Of a DNA stretch of 64,000 nt, positions 33,147 through 44,659 are shown piece by piece; positions within the stretch are counted from its first letter, which is position 1, and each line of letters begins with the position of its first letter. The position numbers and the translations under genes were made by a program. Where the stretch lies: assembly GCF_000147075.1 (NCBI RefSeq), contig NC_014484.1, forward strand, positions 496,001-560,000. The letters are read 5' to 3'. The notes under the pieces are model-generated. The model was not told where the DNA came from. It saw only the letters and a program-made list of their open reading frames with translations, and did not search any database. The stretch is from Spirochaeta thermophila DSM 6192. GTDB lineage: Bacteria; Spirochaetota; Spirochaetia; Winmispirales; Winmispiraceae.

Positions 33147-34019
33147 CTATCCCTCGACGGGTTTCGTTATCTTATCGACAACCATGTGCAATTCTTCCAC
33201 TATTATGCCGGTATACCGCTCGAGGTTGGTGATGATGTAGCGGTGGAGCTCGTGGAGCGGGGAGGCCAGTTCCTTGCCGAAGGGCACGGAGAGGTAGATG
33301 GTGATGTGGTAGGCCCCCCCCTCGGTGGTGATCTGAGCCCTGAGGAGCCGGAGGTCGGGATCGTACTCGGCGAGGCAGTGGAGGATGAGCTCGGTGAGGG
33401 CGCTCTCGGAGATGGTGACCGTGCCCTTCTGGGCAAAAGTGGGCCTCACCACCGCCTTTTCCACCACCTGCTCCTTCTTGAAGAATCCGAAACCGCGCTT
33501 GATGATGAGCCTCAGGGAATCCGCGAGGATCTGGGGGTAGGTCCGCTTCACCTCCAGGGAGGGTACGGGGATCACGTGCTTGCCCTGGGTCCTCCGGTAG
33601 TGTCGCGCGATCTCTATCTCTTCGGGGGTGGCCACCTCCTCGATGGTGATGTACTTGTGGACAGGCGGGAGGTCGAGGGTGCGTGCGATCTTGTCGGCCA
33701 TCTTCTTCGAGGTGGCGAGGATGAGGATCTTGTTGAACTCCTCTTTCCTGAGGGCCTGGATGACGGCCCTCCTGTGCGATTCCTTCTGGAAGAGGGCCAC
33801 CTTGACCGCACCCAGGTATGTCGTCTCCTTTTTTGCGGACTCACCTGCGAGGATCTTTTCCCCCTTGATGAGGAGTCCGTCGTCCACGATGAGGGGAATA
33901 CCGTACTTGTCCGCCACGAGGCGGGCGCGGAAGCTCTTTCCCGTACCGCTCTTCCCGATGAGGGCGTAGACTTTCACGCCCTTGAAGATCCATCCGAGAT
34001 TGCGGAAGAGTGACCTCAT
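33147..34019 (-). CDS. P-loop NTPase fused to an Asp23/Gls24-like domain
   Basis: A 290-residue protein. Near the N-terminus ALIGKSGTGKSF is a Walker A loop, and IPLIVDDGLLI may be the Walker B strand, so it should bind ATP or GTP. A basic central region follows. The C-terminal 90 residues, including ISESALTELILHCLAEYDPD, ITIYLSVPFGKELASPLHE and YTGIIVEELHMVVDKI, match the alpha/beta pattern of Asp23 (alkaline shock/Gls24) proteins. I recognise no named homologue with this layout. There is no signal peptide or transmembrane segment. It could couple nucleotide binding to an envelope-stress role, but this is speculation. Confidence 0.72.
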   Translation of the reverse strand: MRSLFRNLGWIFKGVKVYALIGKSGTGKSFRARLVADKYGIPLIVDDGLLIKGEKILAGESAKKETTYLGAVKVALFQKESHRRAVIQALRKEEFNKILILATSKKMADKIARTLDLPPVHKYITIEEVATPEEIEIARHYRRTQGKHVIPVPSLEVKRTYPQILADSLRLIIKRGFGFFKKEQVVEKAVVRPTFAQKGTVTISESALTELILHCLAEYDPDLRLLRAQITTEGGAYHITIYLSVPFGKELASPLHELHRYIITNLERYTGIIVEELHMVVDKITKPVEG

Positions 34020-35092: not shown

Positions 35093-35566
35093 ATGGGAAA
35101 CGGTCTCGTTCGCGTGCTCTCTCATCCGGTGTTCCTGTCCGGTTTCTTGAGTTGGTTCTGTGCGCAGGTGATCAAGCTCCTGGTGGAGGCGTTGAAGCGG
35201 AGGCGGAGGCTCGCCTCTCCCCTGCTCCCTGTGGTCCTCTGGAAGACGGGTGGGATGCCCTCGAGCCATTCGGCGCTGGTGACCGCCCTCGCGACTTCGA
35301 TCGGGTTTCATGATGGGGCTGATTCCTCGCTCTTCTTCCTGAGCGTCTTCTACGCCGCCATCATCATAAGGGATGCGGTGGGGGTGCGGAAGGCGGCGGG
35401 TCAGCAGGCACAGGTCCTCAATCGTCTCGGTGAGGGCGTGCAGGAGAGGCTGGGGGTGGAGTTCACGCCGGTGAAGGAGGTGACCCACGGCCACACCTTC
35501 CCTGAGGTGGGGGTTGGTATGGTCCTCGGTTTCTCCATCGCCCTGGTGGTGAGTCTTCTCTCGTAG
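35093..35566 (+). CDS. Divergent PAP2-family membrane protein (DUF212)
   Basis: A 157-residue membrane protein of the DUF212 family. LWKTGGMPSSHSALVTALATSIG, with the PSSHS phosphatase-like motif, and IIIRDAVGVRKAAGQQA are family hallmarks, and it ends in a hydrophobic helix (GVGMVLGFSIALVV). These proteins are related to acid phosphatases and vanadium haloperoxidases and may dephosphorylate a lipid. A TTGACA at 35032-35037 could be the -35 box of its promoter, but the -10 is weak. It lies 10 bases before the next gene and appears to head the long operon that includes the Rnf-like genes. Confidence 0.88.
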   Translation: MGNGLVRVLSHPVFLSGFLSWFCAQVIKLLVEALKRRRRLASPLLPVVLWKTGGMPSSHSALVTALATSIGFHDGADSSLFFLSVFYAAIIIRDAVGVRKAAGQQAQVLNRLGEGVQERLGVEFTPVKEVTHGHTFPEVGVGMVLGFSIALVVSLLS

Positions 35567-35576
35567 GAGGGATCCG

Positions 35577-37037
35577 GTGCCCAGGAGGGAGGTGCAGGAG
35601 GTACGTGCGTACTGGAGTGGGGTCGGAGGGGGCGTGCTCTTCGTGGGGGCCCTCGTGCTCATGATCTTCCTGTCGGGCGGGTCGGGCGGCTGGGAGGGGG
35701 TCCAGGTGCTGGGGATACGAGAGAGCGTGGCTCCGGAGGTGGTGGTGGAGGCGCTCGAGAGGAGGGGCCTGGGGCCGGTGGTGTGGGAGGGGAGCCAGGA
35801 GGTGGAGCTGTGGGAGGGACGGGAGCTGGGGCGGTACAGGCTCAGGGATCTCCCTTCGAGACTCGATCCGGCCGATCCGAGGTACGATCCCTACCTCTCA
35901 TGGTTGCCTTCGATGTTCGAGGGGAGGGTGGGTGAAGAGGTCGTCTCCCTCCTCTACGTGCCGCAACGACACGGCGCCCTCTGGTTCCTCTTCGAGGTCC
36001 TCCCGGTGCTCCGGGCCTTTCCCGGAAAGGTGGTGCTCATGGGGCAGGGGTGGCCGGTGAGGCTCTTCCTCGCCGGGGTGTTCCTGGGGCTCCTTGTGTG
36101 GTGGGCCTGGGGGAGATGGGGTGTGTGGGCCGTGGCGGGCGGGGTGGGCTGGGTGGTGTCGGTGGGGACCGGGGGGGTGGGGATGGTGCCCGCCGCCGCC
36201 TCAGGGATGGTGAGTTTTCTGCTCCTCCTGCCGCCGGTTGCCGAGATGTTGGAGAGAGGGGTCCTGTGGGGATGGAGGTGGGAGGAGTGGGGCGGGGTCG
36301 TGTGGTGGGGAGTGATCCATCTCACGGTGGTGGTGGGATGGGCGGTCTTCCTCGGGAGCTGGGAGGTGGCGGCGGCCCTGCTGGTGGAGTGCGGAGTGGT
36401 GGGGATGATGGTCGCCTACTTCACGTGGTGGCGGAGCCGGCTCTCACACCGGGTCTTTCGTCCGGTGCCCCTCAGAAGACGCACCCGCACCGACGCCGGC
36501 AGAAGCCTTTCCCGCTGGGGATGGGGGCTCTTCCTCCTGGTATGCGCCACGGTCGCTGCCGGGGCGGGGCTCGCGGGAGGCGAAGTCCGGATCCCCCTTC
36601 CCGGGGAGGGGCCGTGGTGGCAGGGGGCCGGCGGGTACCTCGCACACCGGGCCTTCCAGGAGGGCTTCCTGTTCAACGTGCCGTTCGAGATGCCCATGAG
36701 GGGAGATGCGGTGATCCTCCCCCGTTTACGGATAGAGGGCGACGAGGTGGTGAGGGAGGATGAGGTGGTCCTCAGGTTCGACGAGGCCTGGTTCCGCAGG
36801 GTGGAGGATCTCCCTCCACACAGGATCGAGCGGTTGTTCCTTCAGGCCGGTGTGGAGACCTCCTTCGTGGGTTCTCCGACGAGGGTGCAGTGGCGTTGGC
36901 CTGTGCAGGCGGCGGGACTCCTCGTCCTTCTGCTTCTGCTGCTGCCCGAGGTTCTCAAGAGGGGGGCGGGTTTGACTTTTGAAACCAGGTATGGTATGAG
37001 AGCAGCCATCCGGAAGGAGGGGAGGCAGGTCGCATGA
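35577..37037 (+). CDS. Unknown 486-residue polytopic membrane protein
   Basis: No family is recognised. One helix lies at about residues 16-35, followed by an outside-type soluble domain of about 120 residues (ending near LLYVPQRHGALWF). A cluster of hydrophobic helices spans residues 160-285, one more is near 322-342, a second soluble segment follows, and a final helix is at 448-468 (QAAGLLVLLLLLLPEVLKRG). The start is a GTG with AGGAGG six bases upstream. Its stop overlaps the rnfC-like ATG (ATGA), so it is translationally coupled to the Rnf-like genes and may be an extra subunit. The coding strand is extremely G-rich. Confidence 0.7.
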   Translation: MPRREVQEVRAYWSGVGGGVLFVGALVLMIFLSGGSGGWEGVQVLGIRESVAPEVVVEALERRGLGPVVWEGSQEVELWEGRELGRYRLRDLPSRLDPADPRYDPYLSWLPSMFEGRVGEEVVSLLYVPQRHGALWFLFEVLPVLRAFPGKVVLMGQGWPVRLFLAGVFLGLLVWWAWGRWGVWAVAGGVGWVVSVGTGGVGMVPAAASGMVSFLLLLPPVAEMLERGVLWGWRWEEWGGVVWWGVIHLTVVVGWAVFLGSWEVAAALLVECGVVGMMVAYFTWWRSRLSHRVFRPVPLRRRTRTDAGRSLSRWGWGLFLLVCATVAAGAGLAGGEVRIPLPGEGPWWQGAGGYLAHRAFQEGFLFNVPFEMPMRGDAVILPRLRIEGDEVVREDEVVLRFDEAWFRRVEDLPPHRIERLFLQAGVETSFVGSPTRVQWRWPVQAAGLLVLLLLLLPEVLKRGAGLTFETRYGMRAAIRKEGRQVA

Positions 37038-38356
37038 GGTCGCTCCTTGCCGGCCGCATGAGAGGCGGTCTGGAGTTCCGTTCCTATGTACAGACGGTGG
37101 ATCGTCGGGTGGTGAACGCATCCCTTCCCAAGGTGGTGGTGATCCCCCTCGCATGGGGAATGATGGAGGCTTCCCATCCTGTGGTGAAGCCGGGCGACGA
37201 GGTGAAGGAGGGGCAGTTGCTCGCGAAACCGGCGAGCGTCATGGGGGCGCCCCTCTACTCCTCGGTGCCGGGGAGGGTGCGGGACATCGTCCCTGTCTCC
37301 CTCCCGGAGGGTGAACGGGAGGCCGTGATCTTGGATCTCGCCGGGACCTTCGAGCGTCGCGCGAAGGTCCGGACCTCCGACTGGGCGGACATGACGCCGG
37401 AGAAGCTCTGGAAGCGGCTCTTCTCGTCGGGGGTGATCCGGCACGGGAACGTCCCCCTTCCGATCGGGAGGTTCCTCCCGCCGCCGGGGCGTAAGGCCGA
37501 GGCCTTGGTCTGCGCCTGTTTCTCTGCGGAGCCGTGGCGGTATACCGAGGAGCTGCTCCTCGATCTCCGGCGCGAGGCCGTGGCCGAGGGGCTCCGCATC
37601 CTCGTGCGCACCGTGATGCCCAAGGAGGTGCATCTGGTCGTTCCCGAAGAGGAACGGACGATCTCCCGCCTCCTCGTGAGGGACCTGGGGGATCCGGGTA
37701 TCCCCGTGCGGGTCCACCATGTCGCGAGACGGTATCCCTTCACCTCGGACGAGATGCTCCTCGAGCTGGTGGGAGGGGCCCGTCTCACCTGGGGCAGGCT
37801 TCCCGTGGACGAGGGATTCGTGATCGCAGAACCCTCCACTCTCCTCGCGGTGAGGGATGCGGTCGTCGGGGGGAGGCCTGTGCTCGAACAGGTGGTCCTG
37901 GTGGGCGGGGATGCGGTGCAGCGCCCCGTCCTCGTGAAGGTCCGGCTGGGTATGCCCGTATTCGATCTCCTCTCCCAGGAGGGGACGATGCTCGGTCCCG
38001 ATGCGGATCCGAGGGTCTTCCTGGGAGGACCTCTCTCCGGCAGGGAGGTCTCATGGCTCGGGGCACCGCTGCTTCCCGGCGTGGATGTGGTGACGCTCCT
38101 CGGGAGAGGGGCGACGGGGGGGGAGGAACCGTGCATCCACTGCAGCCGATGTGCCCAGGTCTGTCCGAGGGGGCTCGAGCCCTGGCTCCTCCACGAGGCC
38201 CTCGGAAGGGGGGACGGGCGGCTCCTCACCGGAGGGGCGATCGAGGGGTGTATAGGCTGCAACCTCTGCAGTTTCGTCTGTCCCTCGGCCATTCCCCTCG
38301 CCGACCGGTTCAGGGACTATCTCGAGAAGGAGAGGGAAGGTCATGGAGAGGGTTGA
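37034..38356 (+). CDS. rnfC: RnfC-like iron-sulfur subunit lacking the NADH/FMN loop
   Basis: A 440-residue RnfC homologue. The N-terminal biotinyl-like segment (HPVVKPGDEVKEGQLLAKP), the SLBB-type region and two C-terminal 4Fe-4S motifs (Cys367, 370, 373, 377 and Cys406, 409, 412, 416) are in the expected order. In canonical RnfC the flavin/NADH loop reads like GLGGAGFPT and is followed by NGAECEP; here the aligned residues (about 133-145) are GVIRHGNVPLPIG and then CACFSAEPW, so NADH oxidation is doubtful. The usual GGxHP near the N-terminus is also altered. It lies between the unknown membrane protein and rnfD, overlapping both. Confidence 0.82.
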   Translation: MRSLLAGRMRGGLEFRSYVQTVDRRVVNASLPKVVVIPLAWGMMEASHPVVKPGDEVKEGQLLAKPASVMGAPLYSSVPGRVRDIVPVSLPEGEREAVILDLAGTFERRAKVRTSDWADMTPEKLWKRLFSSGVIRHGNVPLPIGRFLPPPGRKAEALVCACFSAEPWRYTEELLLDLRREAVAEGLRILVRTVMPKEVHLVVPEEERTISRLLVRDLGDPGIPVRVHHVARRYPFTSDEMLLELVGGARLTWGRLPVDEGFVIAEPSTLLAVRDAVVGGRPVLEQVVLVGGDAVQRPVLVKVRLGMPVFDLLSQEGTMLGPDADPRVFLGGPLSGREVSWLGAPLLPGVDVVTLLGRGATGGEEPCIHCSRCAQVCPRGLEPWLLHEALGRGDGRLLTGGAIEGCIGCNLCSFVCPSAIPLADRFRDYLEKEREGHGEG

Positions 38357-39374
38357 CGGTGGGCGCCTCGTCCTGGGTTCCAGGCAGGTCTATGAGCGGA
38401 AGAAGGTGCTCGCCCTGCTCCCGGTGGTGGGGGGTATGGCGGTGCTCTTCGGTCCGGAGGGGCTCCTGACGACCGCGTCTACGGTGGTGGGGAGCCTCGG
38501 TGCGGACCTCCTCATGGCGCAGCTCCTCTCCCGGAAGGCACGGCCCTCGTGGGATGCGGTGGGGCTCGGGCTCCTCGTGGGGCTCTTCCTGCCTCCCGGA
38601 CTCCATCCCGTTGCCGGGTTCCTCGCCGCGGTCTTCGGTCAGGTGGTGGCGCGCTGGACCTTCGGCGGCCCTGCTCGCGCCTGGTTCCACCCCGCGGTGG
38701 CGGCCGTGCTCTTCGCCGTGGTCTCCTTTCCCTTCGATGCGGGAAGCTATCTTCCGCCGCTCTTCGGGGATAGGGTGCAGGGACTCCCGCTCTTCGTCGA
38801 AGCAAAGCGTCTCCTCTCGGGGCTCAGGGGGGGGAGCATCCTCCAGGTGGTGGGTCTCACCCCGAGCGCGATCGACGTGCGGGTCACGGGTGTGCTCAAC
38901 GATGTGATCTTCGTGCCCCTTCGTTCGTACCTTCCCGACGGATACGTGGATCTCGCATTGGGGAACGTGCCGGGTGCGGTGGGGGCGCAGATGGGGCTCT
39001 TCGTCTTCCTCGGTGCCCTGTTCCTCGTGTACGAGGAGGTGGTGCGGGTGGACCTCCCCTTCCTCTTCCTGGGGGCCTACACCCTCCTCGTCTTCGTCGC
39101 GGGGAGGGGGCCGGAGGGAGGGGCCGACGTGCTCTTCTATCTGGGGGCGACCGATGTGGTGCTCGCCGCGTTCTTCCTCATTCCCGATGAGGTCTCCCGG
39201 CCTTCCAGGGCGGGACTCCTCCCCTGGTATGCGGTTGCGGGAGGTCTCCTGGCCGGGTTCTTCGCCCTGGGTGGGGTCTTCCCCTATCCCGGGCTCCTTT
39301 GCGCCGCGGTGCTCAACCTCACGGTCCCGCTCGTGGATCACCTTTCCGTAGCCCGTGTGGGAGGGCGCGCATGA
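38343..39374 (+). CDS. rnfD: RnfD-like membrane subunit without the FMN-attachment Thr
   Basis: A 343-residue membrane protein with about ten helices that follows RnfD/NqrB: GADLLMAQLLSRK, GLFLPPGLHPVAGFLAAVFGQ, and DLALGNVPGAVGAQMGLFVFLG match conserved blocks. In RnfD a threonine in an S/T-G-A-T motif carries covalent FMN just before this last block; the aligned sequence is T182-G183-V184-L185, so the acceptor Thr is replaced by Leu. It overlaps rnfC by 14 bases and rnfG by four, which implies tight coupling. Confidence 0.8.
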   Translation: MERVDGGRLVLGSRQVYERKKVLALLPVVGGMAVLFGPEGLLTTASTVVGSLGADLLMAQLLSRKARPSWDAVGLGLLVGLFLPPGLHPVAGFLAAVFGQVVARWTFGGPARAWFHPAVAAVLFAVVSFPFDAGSYLPPLFGDRVQGLPLFVEAKRLLSGLRGGSILQVVGLTPSAIDVRVTGVLNDVIFVPLRSYLPDGYVDLALGNVPGAVGAQMGLFVFLGALFLVYEEVVRVDLPFLFLGAYTLLVFVAGRGPEGGADVLFYLGATDVVLAAFFLIPDEVSRPSRAGLLPWYAVAGGLLAGFFALGGVFPYPGLLCAAVLNLTVPLVDHLSVARVGGRA

Positions 39375-39877
39375 GGCACGTGCTCGATCAACGCTTCGAT
39401 GTGGGGCTGGTGGTGCTTTTCTTCCTCTCGACGCTCGCGCTGATAGGGAGCGGCTATGTCTTCCTGGGTGGGAGGCTGGAGGACCGGGATGCGGGAGGGG
39501 TGCGTCTCGTGCTCGGCGGGGAGGGGCTGCAGGTGGAGGAGATGGGGCTTCCTCTTTCCGCAGGGAGCGTGTATCGGGTTTCGGGCGATGGGGAGGCGGT
39601 GTGGGCTGTGTCGCTTCCGGTGTTGTGGCGCGAGGCGGGCCTCGTGGTGGTGCTCTATGATGGAACGGGCGCGGTCGTGGATGTGCGGTTCCCCTACGGG
39701 CTCGAGGCGGGAGGGGACGATCCGTACGATACGGATCGTCTCAGGCGGCTCCTCCTGGATCGGAGTGCCCGTCGTCTGTGGCACGAGGTGAAAGGGGTCG
39801 ATCCTCTCCTGCTCCGGAAGGTGGAGGAGGCGGTGCGCCTCGGACGATCGCTCCTCGAGGAAGGAGGTCTCCTCTAG
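39371..39877 (+). CDS. rnfG: RnfG-like subunit without the FMN-attachment motif
   Basis: A 168-residue protein in the rnfG position. One N-terminal helix (VGLVVLFFLSTLALIGSGYVF) anchors an outside domain whose pattern VYRVSGDGEAVWAVSLPV and VVLYDGTGAVVDVRFPYG follows the FMN-binding domain of RnfG. Canonical RnfG ends with SGATxTS, where Thr binds FMN; here the aligned segment is GVDPLLLRKVEEAV, with no SGAT. Assignment to RnfG is by order, topology and weak similarity, so it is less certain than for its neighbours. ATGA overlap with rnfD fixes the start. Confidence 0.65.
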   Translation: MRHVLDQRFDVGLVVLFFLSTLALIGSGYVFLGGRLEDRDAGGVRLVLGGEGLQVEEMGLPLSAGSVYRVSGDGEAVWAVSLPVLWREAGLVVVLYDGTGAVVDVRFPYGLEAGGDDPYDTDRLRRLLLDRSARRLWHEVKGVDPLLLRKVEEAVRLGRSLLEEGGLL

Positions 39878-40486
39878 ATGGAAAGGGCGGGTTTCTTTCA
39901 CGGCAACATCCTCCTGGTCGCAGGGTGCGGGCTCGCCCCGGCGCTCGCACTCACCACGAGGTTCGGTTACGGTCTCCTCCTCGGACTCGTGGCCTGGGGC
40001 CTGCTCCTCTTCCTCTCGCTCCTCTTCTCCTCGTTCAGGGAGTACCTGCGCAACCGCGAGATGCAGCTCGCGGTCTTCTTCATCGTGGGGGGAACCACGG
40101 TGAGTCTCATGGAGCTCGGTTTCAGGGCCTGGGCACCGGAGGTGCTCAGGGTGCTCGGGTTGTACCTGCCGGTCCTGGTGGTGGGTTCGCTCGTGTGGGG
40201 CTACGGGGTGGCCTACGGTCTCTCCTATCGTCCCAAGCGCACGTTCCGGATGGCGATGCGTGTGGGCGGGGGGTATGCGGCGGCCGTGGTGGTGATGGCC
40301 TTCGTGAGGGAGCTCCTGGGCTACGGTGCTCTCAGCCTGGTGCCCTTCGCCGATGCGGCCTTGGTGGTGCCGGGGCTCGGGGACCTGCCCCTGCGGGCGG
40401 CGGTGGCCCCTGCGGGCGCCTTCTTCGTCTTCGGTTACCTCGCCGCCCTGGTGCGGCTCGCAGGGAGGGATGGTGATGCCCGCTGA
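39878..40486 (+). CDS. rnfE: RnfE-like membrane subunit with lost cysteine ligands
   Basis: A 202-residue protein with about six helices in the RnfE/NqrD family: GNILLVAGCGLAPALALTT, SSFREYLRNREMQLAVFFIV and VVMAFVRELLGYGAL align with conserved blocks. Canonical RnfE has Cys in GLCPALA and in VNC, which bind an iron-sulfur centre within the membrane. Here these positions are Ala20 and Ser104. A Cys at 17, one helical turn away, might be a replacement, but the second ligand has none. The gene follows rnfG directly. Confidence 0.78.
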   Translation: MERAGFFHGNILLVAGCGLAPALALTTRFGYGLLLGLVAWGLLLFLSLLFSSFREYLRNREMQLAVFFIVGGTTVSLMELGFRAWAPEVLRVLGLYLPVLVVGSLVWGYGVAYGLSYRPKRTFRMAMRVGGGYAAAVVVMAFVRELLGYGALSLVPFADAALVVPGLGDLPLRAAVAPAGAFFVFGYLAALVRLAGRDGDAR

Positions 40487-41057
40487 TGCGCTCCTCTATC
40501 TCGGACCTTCACACCTCGCGTTCGCCTTCTTCCTGGGGCTCTCACTCCTGTTCTCGGGTGTCTCCCGTGTGAGGGATGCGCTCTTCCTGGGCGGGGTGGT
40601 GACGGGTCTCCTGCTCCTCGCCGGGCTCTACCAGTACGTCCTCGAGCGGTGGGTCCTCTCGGTCCTGGATGTGCGGGCCTTCAGGTTCATGGGGTTCCTC
40701 CTCGGGTTCGGAGGCGTGCTCGTCCTCCTCTTCCTGCTCCTCCGGCGGGTCGCGCCGGGAGAGGACGGTCGGTGGCTCGAGCTGGTGAGGCGGGGCGATC
40801 TCGTGGCGCTGGTGCTGGGCGGGGTGCTCGTGGTGCTCGAGGGCGAGGGGTCGCTCGGCTGGTCGCTCTGGGGGCTCCTCTGGGCGGGTGTGGGGTTCAC
40901 CGCAGGGCTCCTCTTCTTCGTGGGGATCCTCCACCGGGTGGAGGGGCCGGAGGTGCCCGGGCCGCTCAGGGGGCTTCCGGTGCGGACGGTCTGTGCGGGC
41001 CTCGTTGCCTTGGTGGTCGAGGTGACGGGGTACGCCCTGTACCCCCTGTTCGTATAG
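40476..41057 (+). CDS. rnfA: RnfA-like membrane subunit with lost cysteine ligands
   Basis: A 193-residue, six-helix protein related to RnfA/NqrE: FAFFLGLSLLFSGVSR, LYQYVLERWVLSVLDVRAFR and the C-terminal PLRGLPVRTVCAGLVALVVE match conserved regions (for example FLGLCPFLGVSK and FRGAPIALITAGLMSL in canonical RnfA). The Cys in GLCP is Ser23, and the later TNCAVLG is replaced by VALVLGG. The start at 40476 has GGGAGG seven bases upstream and overlaps rnfE by 11 bases. ribD begins only nine bases after its stop; no rnfB follows. Confidence 0.75.
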   Translation: MPADALLYLGPSHLAFAFFLGLSLLFSGVSRVRDALFLGGVVTGLLLLAGLYQYVLERWVLSVLDVRAFRFMGFLLGFGGVLVLLFLLLRRVAPGEDGRWLELVRRGDLVALVLGGVLVVLEGEGSLGWSLWGLLWAGVGFTAGLLFFVGILHRVEGPEVPGPLRGLPVRTVCAGLVALVVEVTGYALYPLFV

Positions 41058-41066
41058 GAGGCTGGT

Positions 41067-42155
41067 GTGGCGGAGCGTGATGTGGTGTTCATGAGGCGGG
41101 CGCTCGCCCTCGCACGGAGGGCCGAGGGGCGGACGTCGCCCAATCCCATGGTGGGTGCCGTGGTCGTGAAGGATGGGCGCGTGGTGGGCGAGGGGTTCCA
41201 CGAGCGGGCCGGGCTCCCGCATGCCGAGGTGGCGGCCCTCTCCGAGGCGGGGGAGGAGGCGCGGGGTGCGGAGATGTACGTGACCCTCGAGCCGTGCTGT
41301 CACTGGGGGAGGACCCCGCCGTGTACGGATGCGATCCTCAAGGCCGGGGTGCGGAGGGTGGTGGTGGCGTGCAGGGACCCGAATCCGCAGGTGGCGGGAA
41401 AGGGGCTTTCGATCCTCGCCGAAGCGGGGGTGGAGGTGGAGGTGGGGGTGCTCTCCCGGGAGGCGCGGTGGCTCAACAGGGGGTTCATCTCGAGGATGGA
41501 GCGGGGAAGGCCGTGGGTGGTGGCCAAGGTGGCCGCCTCTCTCGATGGCAGGATCGCCCTGCCGGATGGACGTTCGAAGTGGATCACGGGCGAGGAGGCG
41601 CGTTGGGAGGTGCACCGCTTGCGCGCGGGGAGCGATGTGCTCGTCACCGGGATCGGCACGGTGCTGGCCGACGATCCGGCCTTCACGGTGCGGGTTCCGG
41701 GGGGGGAGGGGAGGGATCCTGGGGTGGTGGTCTTGGATACACGGGGGAGGCTGCCGGTGGGGGCCCGGGTCGTACGGGAGGGTACGGTGGTGATGGTGGG
41801 GCCGGGGGTGGATGCGGGGTGGCGCGGGGAGGTGGAAAGGCGGGGGGTGCGGGTGGTGGAGGTGGGGATCAGGGATGGGAAGGTGGATGTACAGGCGGTG
41901 TCGAGGTGGTTGGGGGAGGAGGGGGTGAATGTCGCGATGGTGGAGGCGGGGGCGGGGGTGACGGGGGCGTTCCTCGAGGCGGGGATGGTGGACGAGCTGG
42001 TGGTGTTCGTGGCGCCGAGGGTCCTGGGAGAGGGGAGGGGTTGGGTGGAGGGGCGCGTGGTGGAGGGGTTGGGGGAACGGGAGTGGGAGGTGCGTGAGGT
42101 GAGGAGGGTGGGTGAGGATGTGATGGTCCGGTGCGTGCGGCGGGGGTGGGTGTAG
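41067..42155 (+). CDS. ribD: Bifunctional riboflavin deaminase/reductase
   Basis: A 362-residue full-length RibD. The N-terminal deaminase has the zinc motif HAEVAAL with PCCHWGRTPPC, and the C-terminal reductase begins at about residue 150 (WVVAKVAASLDGRIALPDG, then SKWITGEEAR). It carries out steps two and three of riboflavin synthesis: deamination of the pyrimidine, then NADPH reduction of the ribose side chain. The GTG start has TAGGAG upstream. It follows rnfA-like by nine bases. The second half is very rich in GGG and GTG codons. Confidence 0.95.
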   Translation: MAERDVVFMRRALALARRAEGRTSPNPMVGAVVVKDGRVVGEGFHERAGLPHAEVAALSEAGEEARGAEMYVTLEPCCHWGRTPPCTDAILKAGVRRVVVACRDPNPQVAGKGLSILAEAGVEVEVGVLSREARWLNRGFISRMERGRPWVVAKVAASLDGRIALPDGRSKWITGEEARWEVHRLRAGSDVLVTGIGTVLADDPAFTVRVPGGEGRDPGVVVLDTRGRLPVGARVVREGTVVMVGPGVDAGWRGEVERRGVRVVEVGIRDGKVDVQAVSRWLGEEGVNVAMVEAGAGVTGAFLEAGMVDELVVFVAPRVLGEGRGWVEGRVVEGLGEREWEVREVRRVGEDVMVRCVRRGWV

Positions 42156-42179
42156 GAGTCTTGTACGAGGAGGGATACG

Positions 42180-42821
42180 GTGTTCACGGGTATCGTTCGT
42201 GAGATCGGTGTGGTGCGTGAGGTGAGGAAGGAGGGGGGAGGGCTGGTGGTGCGGGTGGAGGGGCCCGGGGTCGTGGGTGTGCTGGAGGTGGGGGCGAGTG
42301 TGGCGGTGGACGGGGTGTGCCTCACGGTCACGGCCCTGGATGAGCGCACCTTCCTTGCGGATGTGAGCTATGAGACGGCGGCGCGGAGTACGCTGGGGGG
42401 GGTGCGGGTGGGGCGGCGGGTGAACCTGGAGCCGGCGCTGGCGGTGGGTGAGCGGTTGGGAGGGCACCTGGTGTCGGGGCACGTGGATGGTGTGGGGCGG
42501 GTGATGGTGCGGGAGCGACGGAGCGGGGGCGAGTACTTCGCCTTCTGGGTACCGCCGGAGCTGAGGAAGTACATCGCGTCCAAGGCCTCGGTGGCGGTCG
42601 ACGGGGTCAGCCTCACCGTCGCAGAGAAGCTTCCGGAGGGCTTCAGCGTGGTCGTCATCCCTCATACCCTCGCGGTGACCACCCTCGCCGATCGCCGCCG
42701 GGCAGACATGGTGAACCTCGAGTGCGACATCCTCGCCAAGTACGTGGAGAGCCTCCTCCTCGAGGGGGGCCCGGGCACGGGCGACCTCACCATCGAACGG
42801 CTCCGCGATCTCGGGTTCTAG
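42180..42821 (+). CDS. ribE: Riboflavin synthase, alpha subunit
   Basis: A 213-residue protein with the two lumazine-binding repeats of riboflavin synthase. It begins MFTGIVREIGVV, a family signature; repeat one has VAVDGVCLTVTAL and repeat two has VAVDGVSLTVAEK, with GHLVSGHVDGVG between. It dismutates two 6,7-dimethyl-8-ribityllumazine molecules to riboflavin. GTG start with GAGGAGG upstream. Confidence 0.95.
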   Translation: MFTGIVREIGVVREVRKEGGGLVVRVEGPGVVGVLEVGASVAVDGVCLTVTALDERTFLADVSYETAARSTLGGVRVGRRVNLEPALAVGERLGGHLVSGHVDGVGRVMVRERRSGGEYFAFWVPPELRKYIASKASVAVDGVSLTVAEKLPEGFSVVVIPHTLAVTTLADRRRADMVNLECDILAKYVESLLLEGGPGTGDLTIERLRDLGF

Positions 42822-42832
42822 ACGTGCCTCCC

Positions 42833-42861
42833 TTTTCGATACAAAAGGATTGGAGTATTAT
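42833..42861 (+). promoter_or_regulatory. Weak candidate promoter before ribBA
   Basis: TATTAT (42856-42861) is a good -10 box in the only AT-rich stretch of the rib cluster; the aligned -35 (TTTTCG, 42833-42838) is poor. The leader is too short for an FMN riboswitch. Confidence 0.35.
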
Positions 42862-42893
42862 AGACGACAGAACGAGAGAAGTGAGGGATGGAC

Positions 42894-44192
42894 ATGGCGA
42901 ATGAAGAGACGCATGACATATTCGCCTCGATCGAGGAGGCCATAGAGGAATTCCGGGCGGGTCGCCCCCTCGTAGTGGTCGACGACGAGGAACGGGAGAA
43001 CGAGGGCGACGTGATCGTGGCGGCCGAAAAGATCACCCCCGAGCTCGTCAACTTCATGGCCAAGGAGGCCCGGGGCCTCATCTGCGTGGCCATCACGGAG
43101 GAGCGTGCGAGGGAGCTCGACCTCGAGCCCATGACCCCTGAGAACCAGGATACCCTGGAGACGGCCTTCACCGTGTCGGTCGACGCCGTGGGTACGGGCA
43201 CCGGGATCTCCGCTCATGACAGGGCCCTCACCACACGGAAGCTTGTGGACCCCGAGGCCAGGCCGGAGGACTTCCGCCGTCCCGGACACGTCTTCCCGCT
43301 CCGGGCCAAACCCGGCGGGGTGTTGCGGCGCGCCGGACACACCGAGGCGGCCGTGGACCTCGCCCGGCTCGCGGGGCTCTATCCCGCGGGAGTCATCTGC
43401 GAGATCATGAAGGACGACGGCTCCATGGCCCGGCTTCCCGACCTCGTGGACTACTGCAGGAGACACGGCCTCAAGCTCATAAGCATCGCCCAGCTCATCG
43501 ACTACCGGAGACGCCAGGAGAAACTGGTCCGAAGAGAGGCCGAGGCCCTCCTCCCCACGAAGTGGGGCGAGTTCCGTGCCATCGCCTACACCGAAGTGCT
43601 CACGGGGGAGACGCACCTGGCCCTGGTGAAAGGGGACGTCGCGGGCAAGCAAGACGTCCTCGTGCGGGTCCACTCCGAGTGCCTCACGGGAGATACGCTC
43701 GGTTCTCTCCGGTGCGACTGCGGGCAGCAGCTCGCGGCCGCACTCGAGCGCATAGAGAAGGAAGGCCTGGGTGTGCTTCTCTACATGCGTCAGGAGGGGA
43801 GGGGCATAGGCCTCGCCAACAAGATCAAGGCCTACGCGCTCCAGGACCAGGGCCACGACACCGTCCAGGCGAACATCGCCCTGGGGTTCCCGCCCGATCT
43901 CCGAGACTACGGGATAGGAGCGCAGATCCTCGTCGATCTGGGTCTCTCCTCGATCCGCCTCATGACCAATAATCCCAAGAAGATCGCGGGTCTCTCGGGG
44001 TACGGCCTCAAGGTGACGAAACGGGAATCTATCGAGGTGCCACCGAATCCCCGCAACCAATACTATCTTGAGACGAAGAAGATAAAGATGGGACACCTCC
44101 TGGCGGTGGTGCAGGGGAAGGACGCCTCGTCCGAACCCCTTCACCAGGGAAACGTGCGGACCGGAGGTGACCCCCACGAGGAGGAACGATGA
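42894..44192 (+). CDS. ribBA: Bifunctional DHBP synthase/GTP cyclohydrolase II
   Basis: A 432-residue fusion. The N-terminal DHBP synthase has the acidic loop [19 protein letters not shown] and [15 protein letters not shown]; the C-terminal GTP cyclohydrolase II has the zinc cysteines in [18 protein letters not shown] and the RQEGRGIGL catalytic segment. It makes both precursors of riboflavin, dihydroxybutanone phosphate and the pyrimidine. ATG at 42888 is possible, but GAGGG sits six bases before ATG 42894. Its stop overlaps the ribH start (ATGA). Confidence 0.95.
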
Positions 44193-44659
44193 ATCCAGGG
44201 AAGATCGTGGAAGGGAAACTCATAGGCAAGGGCCTCTCGTTCGCCATCGTGGCGAGCAGGTTCAACGAGTTCATCACCACCAAGCTCATCGAAGGGGCGA
44301 TGGACGCCCTGGTTCGACATGATGTGGACCCTGCACAGGTGGATCTCGTGTGGGTGCCGGGTTCGTTCGAGATCCCCCTCACCGCCAAGCGGCTCGCCGC
44401 CTCGGGGAAGTACCATGCCGTGATCTGCCTCGGTGCGGTGATCAGGGGCGCCACCCCCCACTTCGACTACGTGGCGGCCGAGGTCGCCAAAGGCGTGGCA
44501 CTCGCAGGCCTCGAGACCGGGCTGCCCGTGATCTTCGGAGTCCTCACCACCGACACGATCGAGCAGGCCGTCGAGCGTGCGGGCACCAAGGCGGGAAACA
44601 AGGGATGGGACGCCGCCGTGAGCGCCATAGAAATGGCCAACCTCTTCTCCCAGCTGTGA
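44189..44659 (+). CDS. ribH: 6,7-dimethyl-8-ribityllumazine synthase
   Basis: A 156-residue lumazine synthase of normal length. [37 protein letters not shown] and [20 protein letters not shown] (substrate-binding loops with the catalytic His in PHFDYV) are diagnostic. It condenses the products of RibD and RibBA to the lumazine used by RibE. Subunits of this family form pentamers or 60-mers. Confidence 0.96.

Follow-up and report, generated by a model that had tools for sequence, protein, structure and literature searches.

Introduction

Does a gene cluster with the gene order and family assignments of the Rnf complex still encode an electron-driven sodium pump once the binding sites of its cofactors have gone? 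The question is raised by a stretch of 64,000 nucleotides from Spirochaeta thermophila DSM 6192 (contig NC_014484.1, positions 496,001 to 560,000; the whole stretch is here called the window and is contained in a single 2.47-Mb contig), which carries an RnfC-D-G-E-A cluster preceded by the gene for a family-less membrane protein, here designated X. A sequence-only reading of this DNA had proposed that RnfD and an RnfG-like subunit lack the threonines that carry covalent flavin mononucleotide (FMN), and that the joint loss reflects a coordinated change of function. Our analysis points to a wider loss, and we consider it probable on sequence grounds that the cluster encodes a cofactor-stripped, non-pumping, still-selected membrane complex derived from Rnf. 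No papers describing such cofactor loss were found in a search of the open-access literature.

Flavinylation sites in RnfD and RnfG

The open reading frames of RnfD and the RnfG-like protein were recovered at the coordinates previously assigned to them (Table 1), with the ATG of the latter overlapping the RnfD stop codon. A pattern scan of both proteins detected neither [ST]GA[ST] nor D-x-x-[ST]-x-[AS]-[ST], the published flavinylation motif being D-x-x-[S/T]-G-A-[S/T] (PMC12052999), and both reported threonine losses are therefore real. The RnfG-like protein had no match in Pfam or NCBIfam, hence no FMN_bind domain was found. The RnfD site had been misplaced, as T-G-V-L at residues 182-185 is not the flavinylation site. 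In an alignment of about 40 cluster regions, which were picked for similarity to the window proteins and are not a random sample, the FMN-carrying threonine falls between L148 and P149, where the window protein reads GDRVQGL----PLFVEA from residue 142 and the motif is deleted. The strict S/T-G-A-T rule applied earlier was also too narrow. In the same genome, the intact Rnf at L092 (G000:C1:1392000-1406000) departs from the rule with T-T-A-T in RnfD (DALTTATPL) and T-A-A-T in RnfG (VDALTAATISS).

Thirty-nine Spirochaetia clusters were compared, 24 of them eroded and 15 intact. The absence of the motif in the window is unlikely to be due to chance, since the RnfD Thr/Ser is present in all 15 intact clusters and a recognisable RnfG motif in nearly all of them. 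Among eroded clusters, the RnfD Thr/Ser remains in 15 of 24 and a clear RnfG motif is left in three (L086, L103 and L107). Family f3 clusters retain the Thr/Ser in RnfD and have lost the RnfG motif, and L107 shows the opposite, with T-G-A-T kept in RnfG and the RnfD motif gone; these single losses in opposite directions indicate that the two events are uncoupled across the clade. A change of function remains likely, but a coordinated loss specific to the D/G pair is not supported because the window cluster has at least six losses, these two included, and together they empty its entire electron path.

Other cofactor sites of the window cluster

RnfC, RnfD, RnfE and RnfA of the window were assigned to Rnf/Nqr families by Pfam and NCBIfam. 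In RnfC, GVIRHGN replaces GxGGAxFP and SAEP replaces ECEP at the FMN/NADH (reduced nicotinamide adenine dinucleotide) site; all eight [4Fe-4S] cysteines are present (367, 370, 373, 377, 406, 409, 412 and 416). The [2Fe-2S] cysteine positions are occupied by Ala and Ser in RnfE, with one cysteine (Cys17) out of register, and by Ser and Ala in RnfA, and thus all four are replaced. RnfE also carries Val for the Na+-entry Glu115 and Gln for Arg67 (A. woodii numbering, mapped by aligning 9eri_E to the intact paralogue); in A. woodii, the E115Q substitution drastically reduced autotrophic growth (PMC11889175). In RnfD, the FMN-pocket residues Asn90, Arg130 and Ser284 of C. tetanomorphum (roles from PMC9588780) correspond to F82, V122 and L318, the three positions being mapped by a constant offset and not by direct alignment to that structure. 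D282, equivalent to the Asp of the riboflavin/Na+ site, is retained, and the riboflavin Asn is replaced by H116. No RnfB gene lies beside the window cluster, and the GH57 gene is likewise gone from the locus.

Distribution and origin of the eroded clusters

A search of 393 genomes of the phylum detected X in 25 and RnfD relatives in 291; a close-relative scan of named genomes with the window RnfD found nothing. The GGAxFP motif of RnfC is present in all 15 intact clusters and in none of the 24 eroded ones; as a control, 74 further RnfC loci, most of them from other phyla, were scanned with a regular expression, and 73 have the FMN motif. RnfE Glu115 follows the same division (lost in 24/24 eroded, present in 15/15 intact), and the equivalents of RnfD Asn90, Arg130 and Ser284 are lost in every eroded cluster. 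The eight [4Fe-4S] cysteines of RnfC are retained in all 24. The alignment of RnfC from eroded clusters was too divergent for pattern scans, as was that of X. Loss of the [2Fe-2S] cysteines is graded among eroded clusters, four remaining in L075-L077 and three in L078/L079. Nine of the 24 still have an RnfB-like gene. Several treponeme loci (L096, L097, L115-L117 and L121) carry a short RnfB-like ferredoxin gene of about 190-230 amino acids, yet their RnfE has no in-register [2Fe-2S] cysteines.

In a tree of RnfC and RnfD, a single branch (support 100/99) unites all 24 eroded clusters. Outside the genus, most clusters of either kind, intact or eroded, share the order X-C-D-G-E-A-(B)-GH57, which suggests that erosion took place largely in situ at one ancestral locus. 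A DUF212 gene lies upstream in most eroded clusters.

Selection and paralogues

Comparison of the window genome with a congener (G041) by two methods gave ratios of nonsynonymous to synonymous substitution (dN/dS) of 0.05-0.30 for X, C, D, G, E and A. The six frames are intact and overlap or abut in both congeners, and neither disrupted frames nor neutral evolution, the marks of a pseudogene, were found. The low dN/dS and the intact frames speak against decay.

The same genome contains two further RnfD/NqrB genes, at 1,398,785 and 388,016, each with an adjoining FMN_bind gene, and an ApbE gene at 2,399,060. One of these paralogue clusters is the B-C-D-G-E-A Rnf mentioned above (L092), which has its own RnfB. 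Pump function can hence be served elsewhere in the genome.

Eroded clusters in treponemes

Six named loci from Treponema/Spirochaetales metagenome-assembled genomes (L115-L119 and L121) are of the same eroded type, X included. A genome of 1,139,633 bases (G049), which by its size and gene content looks like that of T. pallidum, has a single detected RnfD, at 173,952-174,851, in the order DUF212-RnfC-D-G-E-A-GH57. This cluster has intact frames in a reduced 1.14-Mb genome and falls in the eroded clade; the flavin motif is absent from both D and G, no in-register [2Fe-2S] cysteine is present (the RnfE alignment is uncertain around the cysteine positions) and there is no RnfB. Two FMN_bind proteins lie outside the Rnf cluster (L199 at 622681 and L206 at 192278) and are candidate flavin-transferase targets; their location leaves ApbE/Ftp with other targets.

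Gene map of the window cluster and its neighbours

The genes are tightly packed in the order DUF212, X, RnfC-D-G-E-A and ribD-ribE-ribBA-ribH (Table 1). The last four, which begin 10 nucleotides past RnfA, are presumed riboflavin genes, named by sequence recognition without a Pfam scan. They look co-transcribed with the stripped cluster, and the sister species of the genus is the only other in which this linkage was found. As rib genes adjoin no cluster outside the genus, riboflavin synthesis was rejected as a functional link that could explain the clusters in general. Further upstream, 33147-34019 on the reverse strand encodes an unassigned protein of 290 amino acids whose N-terminus resembles a P-loop and whose C-terminus weakly resembles Asp23.

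Table 1. Features of the eroded Rnf cluster and adjoining genes, in window coordinates.
Feature	Coordinates	Strand	Basis and remarks
DUF212 (divergent PAP2 family) protein	35093..35566	+	Pfam PF02681, E 3e-40
Gene X, 486-aa membrane protein, two predicted extracytoplasmic domains	35577..37037	+	Family-less
RnfC	37034..38356	+	Pfam/NCBIfam; eight [4Fe-4S] Cys present, FMN/NADH site gone
RnfD	38343..39374	+	Pfam NQR2_RnfD_RnfE, E 9.7e-36; FMN pocket gone, D282 present
RnfD residues 142-151 (GDRVQGL----PLFV)	38766..38795	+	Where the flavinylation motif aligns; motif deleted
RnfG-like protein, 168 aa, single N-terminal transmembrane helix	39371..39877	+	Position and topology
RnfE	39878..40486	+	Pfam match; [2Fe-2S] Cys and Na+-entry Glu replaced
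RnfA	40470..41057	+	Pfam match; [2Fe-2S] Cys positions replaced
ribD, ribE, ribBA, ribH (presumed)	41067..44659	+	Directly 3' of RnfA

Homologues of X were detected at 34 loci by profile search, and X itself had no sequence match in Pfam, NCBIfam or PDB. Its structure model has an alpha/beta N-terminal domain (predicted local distance difference test, pLDDT, about 55-86) and a poor remainder; the model, mostly of low confidence, gave no significant fold match. A C-terminal tail of the type R-x-x-Q-A-A is conserved in an alignment of many X proteins. A strict link between X and the complex was rejected: CDGEA lacks an adjacent X in the T. pallidum-like genome, and X occurs without CDGEA at L102 (G126:C1:1212000-1222000), where the order is DUF212-X-GH57 and RnfCDGEA is cleanly absent between X and GH57.

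Discussion

The window cluster would be a third, divergent Rnf cluster of its genome (X-RnfC-D-G-E-A), descended from an ancestral spirochaete Rnf locus. It has lost the binding sites of the transmembrane electron path (RnfC FMN/NAD, RnfD FMN, RnfG FMN and RnfA/E [2Fe-2S], together with RnfB) and the sodium Glu of RnfE, and electron transfer between ferredoxin and NAD would then no longer be coupled to Na+ pumping by the published routes. The membrane core of D, E and A may have been retained as a conduit or scaffold, RnfD having an ammonium/urea-transporter fold (PMC12174285), and the cytoplasm-facing [4Fe-4S] pair of RnfC may have a structural part or still sense redox state or iron. The remaining parts would fit either a scaffold or a conduit gated by redox or iron sensing. 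For the new activity, some form of transport or gating is a tentative suggestion, which we hold to be more doubtful than not.

Several points weigh against a stripped, non-pumping complex. The RnfG-like protein is a putative RnfG counterpart by position and topology only, since its hhalign similarity to intact RnfG is not significant, and its structure model is poor (pLDDT 48.9). Long, deep branches in the tree leave room for long-branch attraction, which may inflate the single-clade result. The complex may hold a non-covalent flavin, the intact L092 cluster could provide RnfB in trans, and electron transfer to riboflavin could still be sustained by RnfD D282 together with the RnfC clusters.

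This last point leads to the alternative of a shortened cytoplasmic electron transfer, in which ferredoxin or flavodoxin would reduce the RnfC [4Fe-4S] pair and this in turn a non-covalent RnfD riboflavin or another partner. It would account for the invariant RnfC cysteines, for the riboflavin genes in the same operon within the genus and for the RnfD Asp and Asn, which are riboflavin contacts in the solved structures (PMC9588780, PMC11889175) and are kept in 18/24 and 20/24 eroded clusters respectively. Nevertheless, we regard it as unlikely, because the window RnfD has His for that Asn and Ala for the Asn next to it, the Asp is replaced by Trp in treponemes, no acceptor site is left beyond riboflavin and the rib linkage is absent from other clusters. 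The stripped subunits might instead join an intact Rnf/Nqr paralogue as regulatory or assembly partners, given that nearly every tested genome with an eroded cluster has another high-scoring RnfD/NqrB; the T. pallidum-like genome keeps the cluster even though the eroded RnfD is its only one, which makes such a partnership quite improbable as the explanation.

Decay into a relic without function would be in keeping with the many missing functional residues, the departure of RnfB and GH57 from the locus and the long branches of the eroded clade, but it is very improbable in view of the six intact frames in both congeners, dN/dS well below 1, the invariant RnfC cysteines and the persistence of the cluster in the reduced genome and at the six Treponema/Spirochaetales loci. 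Least credible of all is that, as the sequence-only reading would have it, D and G lost flavinylation in a targeted and coordinated way within an otherwise working Rnf; both motifs are indeed absent in the window, but so are the RnfC FMN site, the RnfA/E cysteines, RnfE Glu115 and RnfB, and the two losses part company in relatives.

Compared with known systems, the putative stripped complex shares with Rnf, the Na+-translocating ferredoxin:NAD+ oxidoreductase (A. woodii 9eri, C. tetanomorphum 7zc6), the C-D-G-E-A order, the folds of RnfC, RnfD, RnfE and RnfA as judged by family match and the two [4Fe-4S] cysteine motifs of RnfC; it differs in having no adjacent RnfB, RnfC FMN/NAD site, covalent FMN sites, [2Fe-2S] cysteines or RnfE Glu115. 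Nqr has homologous membrane subunits, and its NqrA is also devoid of redox cofactors (PMC12174285), but NqrA has no [4Fe-4S] motifs of the kind found in the window RnfC, the membrane cofactor sites that Nqr retains are lost in the window and NqrF was not seen. The Rsx complex of E. coli, which reduces SoxR, is likewise homologous to Rnf, and its role is regulatory and not purely bioenergetic; the window cluster differs from it in the loss of the NAD site.

The findings bear on the open question of how T. pallidum makes its chemiosmotic gradient. A flavin-based RNF model for this organism was reportedly first proposed by Deka et al. in 2015. The complex has since been modelled in silico as a noncanonical, flavin-based Na+-translocating flavodoxin:NAD+ oxidoreductase (PMC7512555, PMC10194888, PMC11717252). 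The one RnfD found in the T. pallidum-like genome belongs to the stripped kind and lies at the same locus (DUF212-RnfCDGEA-GH57, with no X seen beside it), whereas in the published model electrons are taken to pass through flavins. The sequences argue against T. pallidum RNF as a flavin-based Na+ pump, since they indicate that the flavin, [2Fe-2S] and Na+ sites such a pump would need are missing, and the proposed pump role is unlikely. There is, in our estimate, about an even chance that a spirochaete clade including the syphilis organism keeps an Rnf-derived complex without a transmembrane electron path, the core of a respiratory pump now serving without redox chemistry as a transporter, sensor or scaffold, in the manner of a pseudoenzyme at the level of a complex. 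The core cofactors of Rnf and Nqr have been treated as inseparable from function, and a lineage that is under selection without them would offer a natural test of what the membrane core can do without electrons.
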